From Nocardiopsis sp. FR4 (GTDB lineage: Bacteria > Actinomycetota > Actinomycetes > Streptosporangiales > Streptosporangiaceae): 64,000 nt of DNA. Made by a program: the position numbers and the translations under genes. The notes beneath the pieces were generated by a model. It made no database searches, was not told the origin of the DNA, and was given only the letters and a program-made list of their open reading frames with translations. Where the stretch lies: NCBI RefSeq assembly GCF_009830945.1, contig NZ_VWVV01000019.1, forward strand, positions 62,001 to 126,000, written 5' to 3'. Below, piece after piece: positions 1,312 to 57,055 of this stretch. How positions within the stretch are numbered: the first letter of the stretch is position 1; each line of letters opens with the position of its first letter.

Positions 1312-2139
1312 CTAGTCGGGCCGGGCGAAGCGCCGCGCCGCCAGCAGCAGGCACAGCGCGCCGAAGGCGCCCAGGACCGCCAGCTCCTCCTCCAGTGAGG
1401 GGCGCAGCCCGGCCACCCGCAGGCTTCCGAACAGGGAGTCCGGGACGGCGGGCAGGTACCCGGTGAGGATGCGCCGGGCCGCGTCCACCGCGTGGGTCAG
1501 CGGGTTGAGCGCCGTGGGCCCGGCCAGCCAGGCGGGGAGGCGGTCCAGGGGGAAGAAGGCCCCGGACAGGAACACCAGGGGGCCCATGAGCAGGCCGGTC
1601 GCGGCCTGGAAGGCCTGGAGGCTGGGCAGGAACACCGCCAGCAGCGCCCCCAGGCAGGTCATCGCGAACGAGGCCAGGGCCAGCACCGCCACGAGCGCGG
1701 CGAACAGCACGGGGTCGTAGGGCACTCCCGCCACGCCGGAGAAGGCCAGCAGGGCCGCTCCGTGGCAGGTGGCGATGGTGGTACCGGAGAGCACCTTGCC
1801 CAGGAGCAGGGACTCGCGGCGCACGGGTGCCACGAGCATCTCGCGCAGGAAGCCGAACTCGCGGTCCCACAGGATCGAGGCGCCCGAGGCGAAGGCCGGG
1901 GCCTGGGTCGCCATCACCAGCACGCCGGGGAAGAGGAAGGTCACGTAGCCCACGCCCGCCCCGTCGTCGGGCACCACCGTGCCCAGTCCCACGCCCAGGG
2001 CGGCCAGCAGCAGCAGCGGTTGCAGCAGGCCGAGCACCAGGCGCGTGCGCTCGCGCAGGAAGGCGGTGGTCTCGCGCCGCCACACCGCGGCCACCGCGCG
2101 CGCCTCGGTGTCCAGGCGTGTTGCCACGGTCGTGCTCAC
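1312..2139 (-). CDS. ABC-2 type transporter permease (DrrB-like)
   Basis: 275-residue integral membrane protein with about six hydrophobic segments, of the ABC-2/DrrB family that forms the membrane channel of drug or peptide exporters. The region FFPLDRLPAWLAGPTALNPL is the typical loop before the last helices of DrrB-type permeases. It starts at GTG 2139, which overlaps the stop of the ATPase gene by 4 bases (GTGA), so the two are translationally coupled and form one exporter. The pair is divergent from the lanthipeptide precursor gene, so export of that peptide or self-immunity is a reasonable inference. Resistance to an unrelated compound is the alternative. Confidence 0.9.
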   Translation of the reverse strand: MSTTVATRLDTEARAVAAVWRRETTAFLRERTRLVLGLLQPLLLLAALGVGLGTVVPDDGAGVGYVTFLFPGVLVMATQAPAFASGASILWDREFGFLREMLVAPVRRESLLLGKVLSGTTIATCHGAALLAFSGVAGVPYDPVLFAALVAVLALASFAMTCLGALLAVFLPSLQAFQAATGLLMGPLVFLSGAFFPLDRLPAWLAGPTALNPLTHAVDAARRILTGYLPAVPDSLFGSLRVAGLRPSLEEELAVLGAFGALCLLLAARRFARPD

Positions 2140-3152
2140 GTGCGGGCCTCCGTGCGCAGTTCCCGTCCCGTGTAGTGCAGGAACACGTCGTCCAGACTCG
2201 GTTGGGACAGGGTCGCCGAGCTGACCGCGCCGCCGAGGGCGGTCACGAGCTCGGGCAGCAGGCGGGCGCCGTCGGCGGCCCGCACGACGAGGGCGCCGTC
2301 CAGGACCGTCGGATGCAGTCCGAGGGTGCGGGTGAGGCGTTCGGCGGCGCGGGCGGGGTCGTCGGTCACCAGTAGGACGCGGTCGTCACCCACCCGCGAG
2401 CGCAGTTCTGCGGGGCTGCCCAGGGCCACTACCCGGCCGCGGTCGACGATGGCCAGCCGGTCGCAGTGGTCGGCCTCGGCCAGGTGGTGGGTGGTCAGCA
2501 GCACCGTGGCCCCGCACTCGTGGCGCATGCGGTGCACGTGGTCCCACATCTCGACGCGGCTGTGCGGGTCCAATCCGGCGGTGGGCTCGTCCAGGAACAG
2601 CACCTGGGGCCGGTGCAGCAGGCCCCGGGCGATCTCCAGACGGCGCCGCATGCCCCCCGAGAGGGTGCGCACCAGGCTGCGCCGCCGGTCGGCCAGGTCG
2701 GCCAGGTCCAGCATCGCGCCGACGCGCGGGCGCACCTGTGCGCGCGGCACGCCGTACAGGGCGGCGTGGACGCGCAGGTTCTCCTCGACGGTGAGCTTGC
2801 CGTCCAGGGTGGACTCCTGGAACACCACGCCGATCGAGCGCCGCACGGCGGCCGGGGCGGTGTAGACGTCGTGCCCGGCCACCCACAGGCTTCCGGAGGT
2901 GGGCCGGGTCAGCGCGCACAGCATGGCGACGGTGGTGGACTTGCCCGCCCCGTTGGGGCCCAGGAGGCCGAAGAGCTCCCCCGGGGGTACCAGCAGGTCG
3001 AGTCCGCGGACGGCCTCCACACCGGGGTAGGTCTTGACCAGGCCCTCGGCCCGGATCGCCGGAGGGCGCGGGGGTGCGCTCCGGGCGCCTTCGGGGAACG
3101 TCGCTCCGAGCGGGGTCTCGGCGCGGATTCCTGGTTTCACTGCACACCTCAT
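2136..3152 (-). CDS. ABC transporter ATP-binding protein (DrrA-like)
   Basis: About 338-residue ATPase that powers the adjacent permease. It has Walker A (GPNGAGKST), a Q-loop (GVVFQEST), the ABC signature LSGGMRRRLEIA, Walker B (VLFLDEPTAGLD) and the switch His in LLTTHH. The C-terminal ~90 residues match the DrrA regulatory extension rather than a second nucleotide-binding domain. The start is uncertain: ATG 3152 gives the usual family length but has no strong ribosome binding site. A longer in-frame opening from 3347 would run across the operator and start of the divergent precursor gene, so I rejected it. An inverted repeat at 3244-3264 lies between the two divergent genes. Confidence 0.88.
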   Translation of the reverse strand: MRCAVKPGIRAETPLGATFPEGARSAPPRPPAIRAEGLVKTYPGVEAVRGLDLLVPPGELFGLLGPNGAGKSTTVAMLCALTRPTSGSLWVAGHDVYTAPAAVRRSIGVVFQESTLDGKLTVEENLRVHAALYGVPRAQVRPRVGAMLDLADLADRRRSLVRTLSGGMRRRLEIARGLLHRPQVLFLDEPTAGLDPHSRVEMWDHVHRMRHECGATVLLTTHHLAEADHCDRLAIVDRGRVVALGSPAELRSRVGDDRVLLVTDDPARAAERLTRTLGLHPTVLDGALVVRAADGARLLPELVTALGGAVSSATLSQPSLDDVFLHYTGRELRTEART

Positions 3153-3243: not shown

Positions 3244-3264
3244 AAAGCTACCCTACGTAGCTTT
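3244..3264. promoter_or_regulatory. Inverted repeat, probable operator in divergent promoter
   Basis: Perfect 8-base arms AAAGCTAC and GTAGCTTT separated by CCTAC. The site lies in an unusually AT-rich stretch between the DrrA-like gene (start 3152) and the precursor gene (start 3301). Size and position suit a dimeric repressor or activator controlling both directions. No cognate regulator gene is adjacent, so the regulator is unknown. Confidence 0.6.
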
Positions 3265-3300
3265 CCAATGACAAAAAGTCGTTGATAAGGAGAGAGGGCC

Positions 3301-3465
3301 ATGCCCACAACGGAGACACCCCGCGACGCCGGAACGCTCGACACCACCGCCCTGGCCTACCTGGACGGCGAAGCGGCTCAGACGGGAACGGACGGGGCCT
3401 CCTGCGTCTCGACGTGCACGTGGTTTCTGACCCTGACCTGCGACGCGTCCACACTGCAGGTGTGA
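3301..3465 (+). CDS. Putative lanthipeptide precursor peptide
   Basis: 54-residue peptide, too short for usual gene calls. AAGGAG (3288-3293) lies 7 bases before the ATG. The N-terminal ~30 residues are acidic and Cys-free (Asp and Glu, with LDTTALAYLDGEA), as expected of a leader. The C-terminal ~24 residues hold three Cys (35, 39, 47) and eight Ser/Thr, as in SCVSTCTWFLTLTC, the composition of a lanthipeptide core. It lies 61 bases upstream of the LanKC-like synthetase and divergent from an ABC exporter. Canonical labionin spacing S-x2-S-x3-C is not exact (S34-x2-S37-x1-C39), so ring topology cannot be predicted. The family assignment rests on composition and context, not on a recognised homologue. 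Confidence 0.65.
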   Translation: MPTTETPRDAGTLDTTALAYLDGEAAQTGTDGASCVSTCTWFLTLTCDASTLQV

Positions 3466-3526
3466 CCGCACCGCGCCCCGGGACGGCCGACCGTCCCGGC
3501 CGTCCCCCGAAGGTGAAGGAGACAGG

Positions 3527-5378
3527 GTGACCGACCAGGACGACGCGGGAGTGTGCACACCCGAACAGCGGGAGCGGATCCGCCGGGCGGGGCGCTTCGT
3601 CGCCGACCGCGGCCCCTGGACGGACGTCCTGCCGCCCGACCTCGACCTCCCGCCCCAGGGATGGAAGATCCACGTGTCCGCCCGCCCCGAGACGCTGGCG
3701 CCCACGGCCGAACGCGTCCTGCCCCTGCTGCTGCGCACACCGTGCCGCTTCAAGTTCGCGCGGACCGCGCGGGTCATGCGCGAACTCAACTCCTCGACCA
3801 ACCGCCCCGGCGGCGTGGGCAAGGCCGTCACCGTCTACCCGCGCCCCGGGGACTTTCCCGCCCTGGCCGAGAAGCTGGCCGCCGAACTCGTGGGCATGGA
3901 GGGGCCCCGCAGCCCCAGCGACCGCCGCCTGCGTCCCGACGCCCCCGTCCACTACCGCTACGCCCCCTTCTCCCCGCTCTACGGCGACAACGGCCAGGGC
4001 GACTTCCACCTGGTGGTCCGCGACACCTGGGGCCGTGAGCACCCGGGCGCGGCCACCGGACGCTACACCGCCCCCGCCTGGCTCCCCGACCCCTTCACCG
4101 GAGAGATGGTCCGCCACGCCCCGGCGCACCCCGCGGCGGCCGTGCTGCTGGGCGGGCGCTACCTCGTCCCCGGCGTGCCCCGGGTCCTGGACCACTTCCG
4201 GCACGGGTCCGACGAGTTCCTCGTCACCGACCGGGTCGGCCCGCGCGACCTGGGCGCGCTGGCCCGCGGGCTGCTGCGGGTGCTCGACGCGGTCCACGAA
4301 CGCGGGGTCCTGGTTCGCGACCTGGGCCCCAGCAACGTCGTCCTGGCCGAGGACGGAACCCCCTGCCTGGTGGACTTCGAGATCAGCCACCTGGACGGGC
4401 ACCGTCCGCACGGGTGGACGCCCGGCTACTCCTCACCCGAACAGGAACGCGGCGAACCCGCCCGCGCCGAGGACGACCTGTACTCGCTGGGCGCCACCCT
4501 GCTGTATGCGGTCACCGGCATCGACCCGCCCGCGCGCTCCACCCGGGGCGTGCCCGACGACGGGCGCGCCCGCACCGTCCTGGCGGCGCTGGGCACGGCG
4601 GCACCCCCGAGGCCCGGGCCGTCCCCGGCCTGCTCTCCCCCGGCCCCGCGCACCGCCGGGAGGCCGCCCGCCAGCTACGCGAGGGCCTGACCCCTCCCGG
4701 CTGCCGGGCCGACCCCCGCTACACGGTCGGCCCCGCCGACCTGCCCGGCCTGGTGGCCGGGGCGCTGGCCCAGACCCACGGCGTGGCCCGCGCCCTGCCC
4801 ACTGACGGCGGCCTGACCCCCGTCGGCCTGCCCAGCCCCGTCAACCAGTACCGGGGAGCGGCGGGCGTGGGCATGGAACTGCTGCGCCACCAGGACCCGG
4901 ACTCGCGCACACTGGACCAGCGGCTTCCTCACCCTGCGCACCTTCGCGCCCGGTTTGCAGATGGGCGAGGCGGGCACCGCCTTGTTCCTGGCCGAGGCCG
5001 CCCGGGAGCTGGACGAACCGGTGCTCGGTGAGACGGTCCGCCCCCTGGCGCGCACGGCCCCGGAGCTGGTGGAGGGCACCGACCACACCGGCGGACTGGC
5101 CGGGATCGGGGAGTTCCTGCTGGACGCGGCCGAGTACACCGGACAGGAGGACTACCGCGACGCGGCCCTGGAGGCGGCCGGAATGCTCCTGGTGCGCTCG
5201 GACGGGACCCCCGAGGCGCCCGTGTACCTGGACCACACCCGTGAGCCCGGAGGGGGTGGCCTGCGGCGCGGCCGGGGTCCTGGCCTTCCTGCGCAGGCTG
5301 CACCGGGGCGGGGGACGGGACTGGTTGGGCGACGACCTGCTGCCCCCGCCCGCACGGGCGACGCCGGCGGCGCCCTGA
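3527..5378 (+). pseudogene. Class III-type lanthionine synthetase (LanKC), frameshifted and lacking kinase N-lobe
   Basis: Enzyme that would phosphorylate precursor Ser/Thr, eliminate phosphate and cyclise Cys onto dehydro-residues. Reading frame 1 (from ATG 3527, usable to about 4600) carries the lyase region (GWKIHVSA, KFARTARVMRELNSS, VTVYPRPGDFP, YRYAPFSPLYG) and the kinase C-lobe (VRDLGPSNVVL near residue 264, VDFEIS, and a YSSPEQE activation segment). Frame 2 (about 4600-4930), frame 3 (about 4930-5245) and frame 4 (about 5245-5378, ending in WLGDDLL) encode cyclase-like sequence. No zinc-ligand CHG or GWCxG motifs are seen, favouring class III over class IV. Around residues 208-215 GGRYLV runs straight into PGVPRVLDHF: the glycine loop and catalytic Lys region of about 60 residues is absent in frame. 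Summed length is about 615 residues against about 850-900 for the family. Confidence 0.75.
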
Positions 5379-5466: not shown

Positions 5467-5874
5467 ATGAACGCGGTCACCCTGGTGCGCAGCCAGTTCC
5501 TGGCCCCCACGGTGGAGTACGCCTACGCCGCGACCGCCCCGGCCCGGGGGCACGTGGTGTGGACCGCGGGAGCCTGTCCGCTCGACGCCGAGGGCGCCAC
5601 CGTCGCCCCGGGCGACCTCATCGCCCAGGCCGAGCAGGTGATGCGCAACCTGCGTACCGCCCTGGCCGAGGCCGGCGCCGGACTGGCCGACATCGTCAAG
5701 ACCACCGTGTACGTGGCCACCACCCGCCAGGAGGACCTGGTGGCGGCGTGGAAGGTGGTCCGCGACCACATGGGCGGCCACGACGCCCCCAGCACCCTGC
5801 TCGGCGTAACCGTGCTCGGCTACCCGGACCAACTGGTGGAGGTGGAGGCGGTCGCCGTCACCTCCGGCGTCTGA
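5467..5874 (+). CDS. RidA/YjgF-family protein
   Basis: 135-residue protein of the RidA (YER057c/UK114) family, trimeric cytosolic proteins of which many hydrolyse reactive enamine/imine intermediates to ketones and ammonia. Visible features are the VVWTAGACPLD strand, the QAEQVMRNLRTALAEAG helix and the IVKTTVYV block. The canonical RidA arginine in the R-PA motif is not obvious here, so this may be one of the Rid subfamilies without proven deaminase activity. Start ATG 5467 follows GAGGAG (5456-5461). It lies 88 bases after the LanKC remains; its 3' end overlaps the convergent CGNR gene by 55 bases. Confidence 0.85.
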   Translation: MNAVTLVRSQFLAPTVEYAYAATAPARGHVVWTAGACPLDAEGATVAPGDLIAQAEQVMRNLRTALAEAGAGLADIVKTTVYVATTRQEDLVAAWKVVRDHMGGHDAPSTLLGVTVLGYPDQLVEVEAVAVTSGV

Positions 5875-56094: not shown

Positions 56095-57055
56095 AGAAGA
56101 CCCAGTACTTGGAGGCGAGGAAGTTCACCGCGGTGAACCCTCCGATGATCATCAGCAGCAGCCACGCCATCGCCGAGGCGTATCCCATGTCGAAGGCGCC
56201 GAAGCCGCGTTGGTAGAGGTAGAGCGTGTAGAAGAGCGTGGAGTCGGAGGGGCCGCCCGTGCCGCCGCTGACGATGAACGCCTGGGTGAAGGTCTGGAAG
56301 GCGTTGATGATCTGCAGCACCAGGTTGAAGAAGATGATGGGGGTGAGCATCGGCACGGTGATGTTCCAGAACCGGCGCATCGGGCCCGCACCGTCCACCG
56401 CGGCGGCCTCGTAGTACATGGCCGGGATCTGCCGCAGGCCCGCCAGGAAGATCACCATCGGCGCGCCGAAGGTCCACACGTTGAGCACGATCAGGGTGCC
56501 CAGCGCGTAGTCGGGGTGGGAGACCCAGCCCTCGCCCTGGATGCCGAAGAAGGCCAGCACCTGGTTGATCAGGCCCTCGGCGCCGAAGACCTGGCGCCAC
56601 AGGATGGCGATGGCCACGCTGCCGCCCAGCAGGGAGGGCAGGTAGTACACCGACCGGTACAGAGGCAGTCCGCGCACGCCCCGGTCCAGCACCATCGCCA
56701 GGGCCAGGGCCAGGGCCAGCTGGAGCGGCACCGACACGAACACGTACACGAACGTGACCCTCAGCGCGCTGTGCAGCCGGGAGTCGCCGAGCATCCGCTC
56801 GTAGTTCTCCAGGCCGACCCAGTTGTGGTCGCCGATGAGGCTGTAGTCGGTGAAGGAGAAGTACAGCGAGGCCATCAGGGGGCCGGCCGTGATGAACGCC
56901 AGGCCCAGGAACCAGGGGGCCAGGAAGCCGTAGGCGGCGAGGTTCTCGTTGCGCTTCTTGCCGGGAGCCGGGGGCTTGCCGGTGCGACGGCGCGGCGCGG
57001 CGGCGGCCGGGCCGTCCGGAGCCTTGGCGGGCCGTCGTTGCAGGAGGGCGCTCAC
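56084..57055 (-). CDS. Sugar ABC importer permease (MalF-like)
   Basis: 323-residue permease, N-terminal basic cytosolic segment then six helices (YGFLAPWFLGLAFITAGPLM and later segments). EAA motif: PAMYYEAAAVDGAGPMRRFW. Pairs with the MalG-like protein. Start GTG 57055 overlaps the stop of a possible 22-codon leader ORF by 4 bases and has GGAGGGTGGG upstream. A LacI-type site (57197-57210) lies in its promoter region. Confidence 0.93.
   Translation of the reverse strand: MSALLQRRPAKAPDGPAAAAPRRRTGKPPAPGKKRNENLAAYGFLAPWFLGLAFITAGPLMASLYFSFTDYSLIGDHNWVGLENYERMLGDSRLHSALRVTFVYVFVSVPLQLALALALAMVLDRGVRGLPLYRSVYYLPSLLGGSVAIAILWRQVFGAEGLINQVLAFFGIQGEGWVSHPDYALGTLIVLNVWTFGAPMVIFLAGLRQIPAMYYEAAAVDGAGPMRRFWNITVPMLTPIIFFNLVLQIINAFQTFTQAFIVSGGTGGPSDSTLFYTLYLYQRGFGAFDMGYASAMAWLLLMIIGGFTAVNFLASKYWVFYGD

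Follow-up and report, generated by a model that had tools for sequence, protein, structure and literature searches.

A probably decaying class IV lanthipeptide locus with a cinnamycin-type core in Nocardiopsis sp. FR4, and its intact sister loci

When a lanthipeptide synthetase gene has lost the N-lobe of its kinase, does the gene mark a dying cluster, an error of sequencing, or an enzyme that works by another route? The question is raised by a compact locus in a 64,000-nucleotide stretch of Nocardiopsis sp. FR4 DNA, called the window throughout. An original prediction, made from the letters of the sequence, described a 54-residue precursor, its leader acidic and free of Cys and its core rich in Cys, Ser and Thr, a downstream synthetase with lyase, kinase and cyclase sequence, and a divergent DrrAB exporter, and all three are found, at 3301-3465, from 3527 to about 5378, and at 1312-3152, respectively. 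Of the shared operator that it also proposed, the palindrome at 3247-3261 is real and occupies the same site ahead of the precursor in all four relatives, while the operator role is putative. We consider it probable that the window holds a decaying class IV locus with a dead synthetase, and that its intact sisters would make a peptide with the cinnamycin ring set by means of a LanL enzyme and export it through DrrAB. The locus is laid out as follows; the DrrA start at 3152 was taken from the sequence reading.

403-1242: dimethylargininase gene, the first gene of the window
1312..2139, minus strand: DrrB-like ABC-2 permease of the exporter (PF01061 103 bits; TIGR01247 170 bits, where the cut-off is 223)
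2136..3152, minus strand: DrrA-like ABC ATPase, divergent from the precursor (TIGR01188 305 bits, a little short of the cut-off, 312; PF00005 116 bits)
3247..3261, no strand: palindrome GCTAC-N5-GTAGC between exporter and precursor, a putative operator
3301..3465, plus strand: lanthipeptide precursor of 54 aa; its leader is of the class IV type and has a PRDAG box
3403..3462, plus strand: predicted core, cinnamycin ring frame C-x2-T-C-x4-T-x2-C-D-x2-T (cleavage site approximate)
3527..4690, plus strand: lanL 5' fragment, 387 aa, with a complete lyase-like domain and then a kinase without its N-lobe (PF25816 RamC_N 144.6 bits; NF038150 329.5 bits)
4150..4175, plus strand: junction of a 60-codon loss in the kinase, covering the glycine loop, the Lys and the C-helix region, against three relatives
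4240..4260, plus strand: junction of a 17-codon loss in the kinase, after GPRDL, against three relatives
4598..4612, plus strand: lanL frame break 1; the second frame goes on in ORF 4414-5031
4895..4912, plus strand: lanL frame break 2 with a short loss (6-7 codons of the relatives)
5088..5110, plus strand: junction of a 165-codon loss in the cyclase, between the relatives' two GLAGIG-like stretches; takes CQG and CCG
5250..5262, plus strand: lanL frame break 3, near 5258
4955..5378, plus strand: LanC-like cyclase 3' remnants in two frames (NF038150 53.5 and 14.7 bits; blastp to L009-L012)
5467..5874, plus strand: Rid-family (L-PSP) gene, a synteny marker (PF01042 68 bits)

The Rid-family gene is probably outside the lanthipeptide pathway. 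Scans for promoters, terminators and tandem repeats came back empty, and among plasmid records 7 had a match, the best one covering 22% of the query.

Six related loci came up when named genomes were scanned. Four of them have a homologous precursor and the upstream palindrome, namely L009 (filed as Glycomyces fuscus), L010 (Streptomonospora nanhaiensis), L011 (from Nocardiopsis sp. FIRDI 009) and L012 (from Nocardiopsis lucentensis); the other two, L013 and L014, are further removed. Among the 40 genomes of the genus that were examined, the window's own included, the precursor occurs in 5 and lanL in the same 5, and only the window copy of lanL is broken. The intact relatives in neighbouring genomes that the original prediction called for thus exist: in 4 of the other 39 genomes a homologous precursor adjoins a lanL whose frame is open, and the reading of a dying cluster gains support from them. 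L011 and L012 share both flanks with the window, in the order dimethylargininase-DrrBA-lanA-lanL-Rid, and carry 73-75% identical copies of the Rid gene at the same place; in L009 and L010, where no Rid gene was found, the common part is DrrBA-lanA-lanL only. The LanL of the L009 record (Glycomyces fuscus TRM 49117) is a 100% match to that of G004, a genome placed in the window's genus alongside records of Nocardiopsis and Streptomonospora, and the species name on the record may be wrong. The closest outgroup LanL, 58% identical to that of L012, is in L055 (the same locus as L119, on G447:C2); no PRDAG precursor was found in the stretches of it examined, and its first 1.7 kb holds no match to the palindrome.

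The synthetase had been labelled class III, and profile searches against the LanKC and LanL families overturn that label: the 387-aa ORF scores 329.5 bits with the class IV profile NF038150 and 179 bits with the class III profile NF038151, which comes second and stays below its cut-off of 575. Searched apart, the pieces of the window lanL give 329.5, 26.8, 53.5 and 14.7 bits with NF038150, and the curated cut-off of 650 is not reached; the intact LanLs of L009, L010 and L012 score 761.9-817.7 bits as class IV (above 650) and 351-372 bits as class III (below 575). The window synthetase is class IV (LanL) by descent. Of the domains of a LanL, the lyase-like one is present (PF25816 RamC_N, 144.6 bits), though this domain is common to class III too; the Ser/Thr kinase is incomplete, with 60 and 17 codons gone and PF00069 matched only from profile position 95; and the zinc-ligand cyclase has lost CQG and CCG, the Cys residues of which we take to be the zinc ligands, together with 165 codons. 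Elsewhere in the same genome, at L017:4582-7323 (C15), there is an intact class III LanKC of 1127.6 bits that adjoins ABC-transporter-like ORFs; this second locus is probably of the SapB type.

Lesions in lanL were called by frame-aware alignment to three intact relatives (L009, L010 and L012), and the main picture is the same with each: in-frame losses of 60, 17 and 165 codons, and frame breaks near 4601-4610, near 4897-4909 (with a loss of 6-7 codons) and near 5258. Minor gaps of 1-4 codons and insertions of up to 5 codons vary with the relative compared. As had been observed, GGRYLV runs directly into PGVPRVLDHF in ORF 3527-4690, so that the glycine loop and catalytic Lys region of the intact relatives are absent, and the cyclase sequence is spread across further frames; the 17-codon loss, the 165-codon cyclase loss and the short loss with its frame break near 4897-4909 had been missed. 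Over the 599-600 aligned codons there are 0 stops, and identity to L009 is 441/599. CQG and CCG are present in 30 of the 30 fetched LanLs; the window cyclase frames contain no CQG, CCG or CHG, the single CCG at 4272 sitting in another frame. Because the kinase N-lobe and CQG/CCG are lost and the frame is broken three times, no lanthionine should form from the window locus, and to judge from its sequence both the kinase and the cyclase should be dead.

One option raised at the outset was that the enzyme is a divergent class III synthetase that uses another kinase or dehydrates by a nucleotide-independent route. The missing N-lobe is what speaks for nucleotide-independent dehydration, which we regard as scarcely credible: the profile says class IV, the N-lobe and CQG/CCG are present in the intact relatives, and the same gene has lost its cyclase core and its frame as well. 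Since the cyclase is without its CQG and CCG motifs and its frame, the other-kinase or nucleotide-independent option is left unsupported. A class III or kinase-free enzyme is rejected by the class IV profile scores, the multiple lesions and the occurrence of CQG/CCG in 30/30 LanLs.

The strength of selection on the retained part of the gene bears on when, and whether, it decayed. Over 586 retained codons pN/pS is 0.451 (window-L009), 0.485 (window-L010) and 0.569 (window-L012), compared with 0.369 (L009-L010), 0.484 and 0.471 among the relatives, and in a tree of the lyase part the end branch of the window is 0.29, against 0.22 for L053 (the same locus as L010) and 0.21 for L054. With pN/pS only slightly raised, strong relaxation of selection is rejected; so little relaxation means that the decay is recent or that the lesions are artefactual. 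We also considered deletion between direct repeats as a general cause of the losses, and reject it, since the 165-codon loss is the only one that backs the idea, and does so in three of the four relatives. For that loss, 1/84 (L009), 2/85 (L010), 4/85 (L011) and 58/85 (L012) background positions are at least as alike as its ends; the ends of the 60-codon loss are unremarkable in all four relatives (25/97, 89/98, 55/98 and 48/98 background positions as alike), and those of the 17-codon loss are distinct in L012 only (2/103), at a distance other than that of the loss itself.

The second of these possibilities, that the organism has an intact lanL and that a GC-rich gene was mis-assembled or mis-sequenced, is the main rival to decay, and we think it unlikely, if well worth weighing. 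It would fit with main lesions that are all losses, with the lack of any stop made by substitution and with a near-normal substitution pattern; the precursor and the fragment are each found identical on 3 contigs, yet these are possibly copies of one assembly. Against it stands the rest of the sequence. When 45 ORFs from 69 kb of G043 (the genome of L011) were matched to the window contig, a set that includes shadow ORFs and 7 rows with matches to under half of the ORF, lanL alone showed both several frames and a large internal loss; the two other two-frame rows are the dimethylargininase, a single open frame on inspection, and a 217-aa row at 56220-56873. None of 14 ORFs from G034 (the genome of L012) is split over frames, and lanL shows large gaps. 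Of the DrrA-like matches genome-wide, 57 of 62 are without a stop and 5 have one. All 24 of 24 lanL-fragment matches are likewise without a stop, although this control is weak, frame breaks being invisible to it, so that the broken query passes too. Losses of 180 and 495 bases, finally, seem atypical of base-calling errors. We infer that the lesions are real in the organism. The five DrrA-like matches of this genome that carry one stop codon are on C28, at C46, at C3:133670, at C11:17872 and on C12.

The probable decay has left the precursor, exporter, palindrome and lyase-like domain of the window intact, and a complete lyase-like domain invites a further reading, in which the 387-aa fragment supplies lyase activity in trans and a separate kinase, such as the class III LanKC described above, does the rest. 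In favour of it, separate VenL kinase and lyase constructs were incubated jointly with VenA in an experiment reported within PMC2843593, and the class III LanKC of the same genome could be the partner. Rings would still have to be closed without any remaining CQG/CCG cyclase motif, the leader and the class differ from those of the class III LanKC, and the four intact sister loci have a simpler account; we judge action in trans very improbable.

What a working locus would make is indicated by the core. The labionin motif is S-x2-S-x(2-5)-C, and the window core has S-x2-S-x1-C only, so the earlier statement that labionin spacing does not fit was correct; a core of the cinnamycin type explains why, and the cinnamycin ring frame does fit. 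The class II cinnamycin pattern C-x2-[ST]-C-x4/5-T-x2-C-D-x2-[ST] is matched by the window and 3 of the 4 relatives (an example of the relatives' cores is CRNTCVSGFTIRCDGYTL), the strict frame failing in L012, which has Pro at position 4. When nine cores are aligned (the window, the 4 relatives and 4 of class II), C1, C5, T10/11, C13/14 and D14/15 are found in 9/9, S/T17/18 in 9/9 and S/T4 in 8/9, L012 having its Pro. Only 8 of 200,000 shuffles of the window core produce the strict frame by chance, and the best score of the window core to class II cores was reached by 0/5000 shuffles, as it was for L009, L010 and L011 (5/5000 for L012). Ser6 and Lys19 are absent, with Thr, Val or Ile at position 6 and the C-terminal Lys missing, and therefore no lysinoalanine bridge is expected. 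The Pro4 of L012 would remove one of the three cinnamycin rings; the near-identical precursor P0026 (Nocardiopsis sp. EMB25) keeps Thr there and is already named 'cinnamycin family lantibiotic' in one public source.

Four of the relatives' precursors were scored with two family profiles. With the Pfam DurB-like family PF19398 (cut-off 26.6) P0027 scores 30.7, L009 30.6, P0028 26.6 and P0026 24.4 bits, 3 of 4 at or above the cut-off, and with the NCBIfam cinnamycin family NF033431 (cut-off 35) the values are 32.8, 32.3, 29.1 and 29.7, of which 0/4 reach it; the window precursor had no family match at the limits used, PF19398 and NF033431 included. When 394 genomes from the class were searched for the family, 5 had a match, namely four full cinnamycin precursors above cut-off and G043 (L011) at 27.6 bits, below it, and neither the window's own genome nor G001 had one. 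The four full cinnamycin precursors, our controls, have a LanM adjacent in 4/4 cases (482-518 bits); the window instead has LanL.

The leader tells a different story from the core. Compared with 4 other class IV leaders, the window leader is equalled by 0/2000 shuffles, and compared with 4 class II cinnamycin leaders by 388/2000; across the window and its 4 relatives the ranges are 0-9/2000 and 388-1907/2000. The shuffles thus favour class IV and not class II: the leader is of the class IV type, and the core is of the cinnamycin type.

Across the order, 56 of 345 genomes have LanL matches at 1e-100 or better, the broken copy of the window missing this limit. A motif search placed a PRDAG precursor in 29 of 30 fetched LanL loci, with two chance hits discarded. 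These are the 4 relatives, 5 loci whose cores are of the SCTVCHWG type, 17 of the NTCKR type, 2 with short cores, and L074. Two CHWG cores were tested against class II cores, with 0 and 1/2000 shuffles as good, and L074 gave 1/2000; for two NTCKR cores 121 and 316/2000 shuffles were as good, that is, there is no resemblance above shuffles. In the LanL tree the lyase part of the window and the 4 relatives form one group (97/93); L074 sits in another part of the tree, on a long branch. Because L074 stands apart from the window clade, the cinnamycin-core label, with the Pro4 core of L012 counted in, needs two changes on this tree. The precursor of L074 (the same locus as L116, on G642:C1; precursor at L116:5748) has a core that keeps to the strict cinnamycin frame, after which part of it is repeated (HTCTYGQTFVCDS). 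The five loci L056-L060 (also L111-L115) have class IV cores of the SCTVCHWGxTxLCDDFSTQA type and a DrrAB exporter related to that of the class II cinnamycin loci.

The exporter also reaches across the two classes. Window DrrB is 72-74% and DrrA 72-77% identical to those of L009-L012, the best DrrA paralogue in the window's own genome being 47% identical. Of the 26 loci from other genera, 11 were compared over wider stretches (5/5 CHWG, 3/17 NTCKR, 1/2 short, L074 and L055), and window DrrA is 53-60% and DrrB 44-50% identical to those of 5/5 CHWG-core class IV loci and of 3/4 class II cinnamycin loci; the fourth class II locus, L050, has a DrrA match of 31% only, and the 3 NTCKR loci have DrrA matches of 32-33% and no DrrB. 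Neither DrrA nor DrrB was found within the 12-13 kb examined of L119, L120 and L116, and since L116 (the locus of L074) has the strict frame, its lack of DrrAB counts against a strict link between core and exporter. Related DrrAB thus occurs with the cinnamycin-type core in both classes, with two exceptions, and in this small sample mostly follows core type. Among the genes of the cin loci, the exporter alone has strong matches near intact class IV loci. In the exporter tree the 5 DrrA of class IV cinnamycin-core loci form a clade (95/99) and the 5 of CHWG-core loci another (100/98), which groups with the 3 class II sequences; the branching that separates the sets is weak (63/98), with paralogues on both sides, so the tree leaves descent unsettled, and transfer of the exporter as a module is not adopted here.

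The palindrome, written as RCTAC-N5-GTAGY, has a single match in the window and stands at the same place in 4/4 relatives, with a symmetric change in L053 (L010). Genome-wide it occurs at 8 places, compared with 84 for the reversed pattern, and shows no genome-wide enrichment.

In the intact sister loci, we propose, the precursor would be made under the upstream promoter and operator, and LanL would bind its class IV leader; the kinase would then phosphorylate Ser and Thr of the core, the lyase would eliminate the phosphate, and the cyclase would add the Cys thiols. The product would be a small globular peptide with rings from C1 to T17/18, from S/T4 to C13/14 and from C5 to T10/11, a pairing taken by analogy from cinnamycin, and the DrrAB pair would presumably export it.

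More tentatively, and as an idea that could well be wrong, we suggest that a cinnamycin-type core, mostly with a related DrrAB, has been joined to two dehydration machineries, LanM, paired with a long leader of the CinA type, and LanL, paired with a PRDAG leader; that the intact sisters would make a cinnamycin-like, possibly phosphatidylethanolamine-binding peptide via LanL; and that the window belongs to a lineage that is losing it. Should the prediction for the intact relatives hold, two synthetase classes would arrive at the same antibiotic ring scaffold, and whether the core or the enzyme sets the ring pattern would become testable; peptides of the cinnamycin type that skip the lysinoalanine step, and perhaps hydroxylation too, would also be suggested. 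The lesson of the window itself is modest: a cluster in mid-decay, with precursor and exporter intact, and no kinase-free enzyme. It is the sister loci, with a class IV pathway for a cinnamycin-type core and a peptide predicted from sequence only, that deserve the attention of specialists.

Set beside known systems, the window synthetase has RamC_N lyase-like and kinase domains in common with class III (LanKC, SapB/RamC type), but it scores lower on the class III profile, and its core is without labionin spacing; passages of PMC7268733 and PMC3930743 describe class III cyclases as lacking the zinc residues. With the class IV lanthipeptides (venezuelin/VenL, streptocollin, SflA and globisporin/SgbL) the intact relatives share the LanL order lyase-kinase-cyclase and the short precursor; they and the window differ in having a core of the cinnamycin type, and the window enzyme is broken. 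Goto et al. 2010 (PMC2843593), in the portion available, describe the LanL domains and a venezuelin ring pattern nearest to cinnamycin and the duramycins. Walker et al. 2020 (PMC7268733) treat 815 class IV clusters, and the word cinnamycin is absent from their main text. In the available portions of the open-licence PMC literature, including PMC11251773, PMC9576775, PMC12328550, PMC10676316, PMC3930743 and PMC8358304, we found no report of a class IV cinnamycin-type core; class IV and LanL go unmentioned in PMC12837462.

The kyamicin paper (PMC6974636), in the part available, places the cinnamycin group in class II and sets out the roles of LanM, LanX and LanN. Queries for the latter two were drawn from L048, the LanN being a 150.7-bit match to PF19375 and the 304-aa LanX candidate being named by place and size only; both match the three other class II loci, and no homologue of LanN (PF19375) or of the probable LanX was found at E <= 1e-3 in L009-L012, L035 and L037. 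The window and its relatives differ from the class II family (cinnamycin, duramycin, kyamicin and mathermycin) in that LanL replaces LanM, that there is one residue less between C5 and T11, and that the lysinoalanine residues are missing; they resemble it in C1, S/T4, C5, T11, C14, S/T18 and Asp15 of the core, and in a DrrAB-like exporter that has relatives in 3 of the 4 class II control loci.
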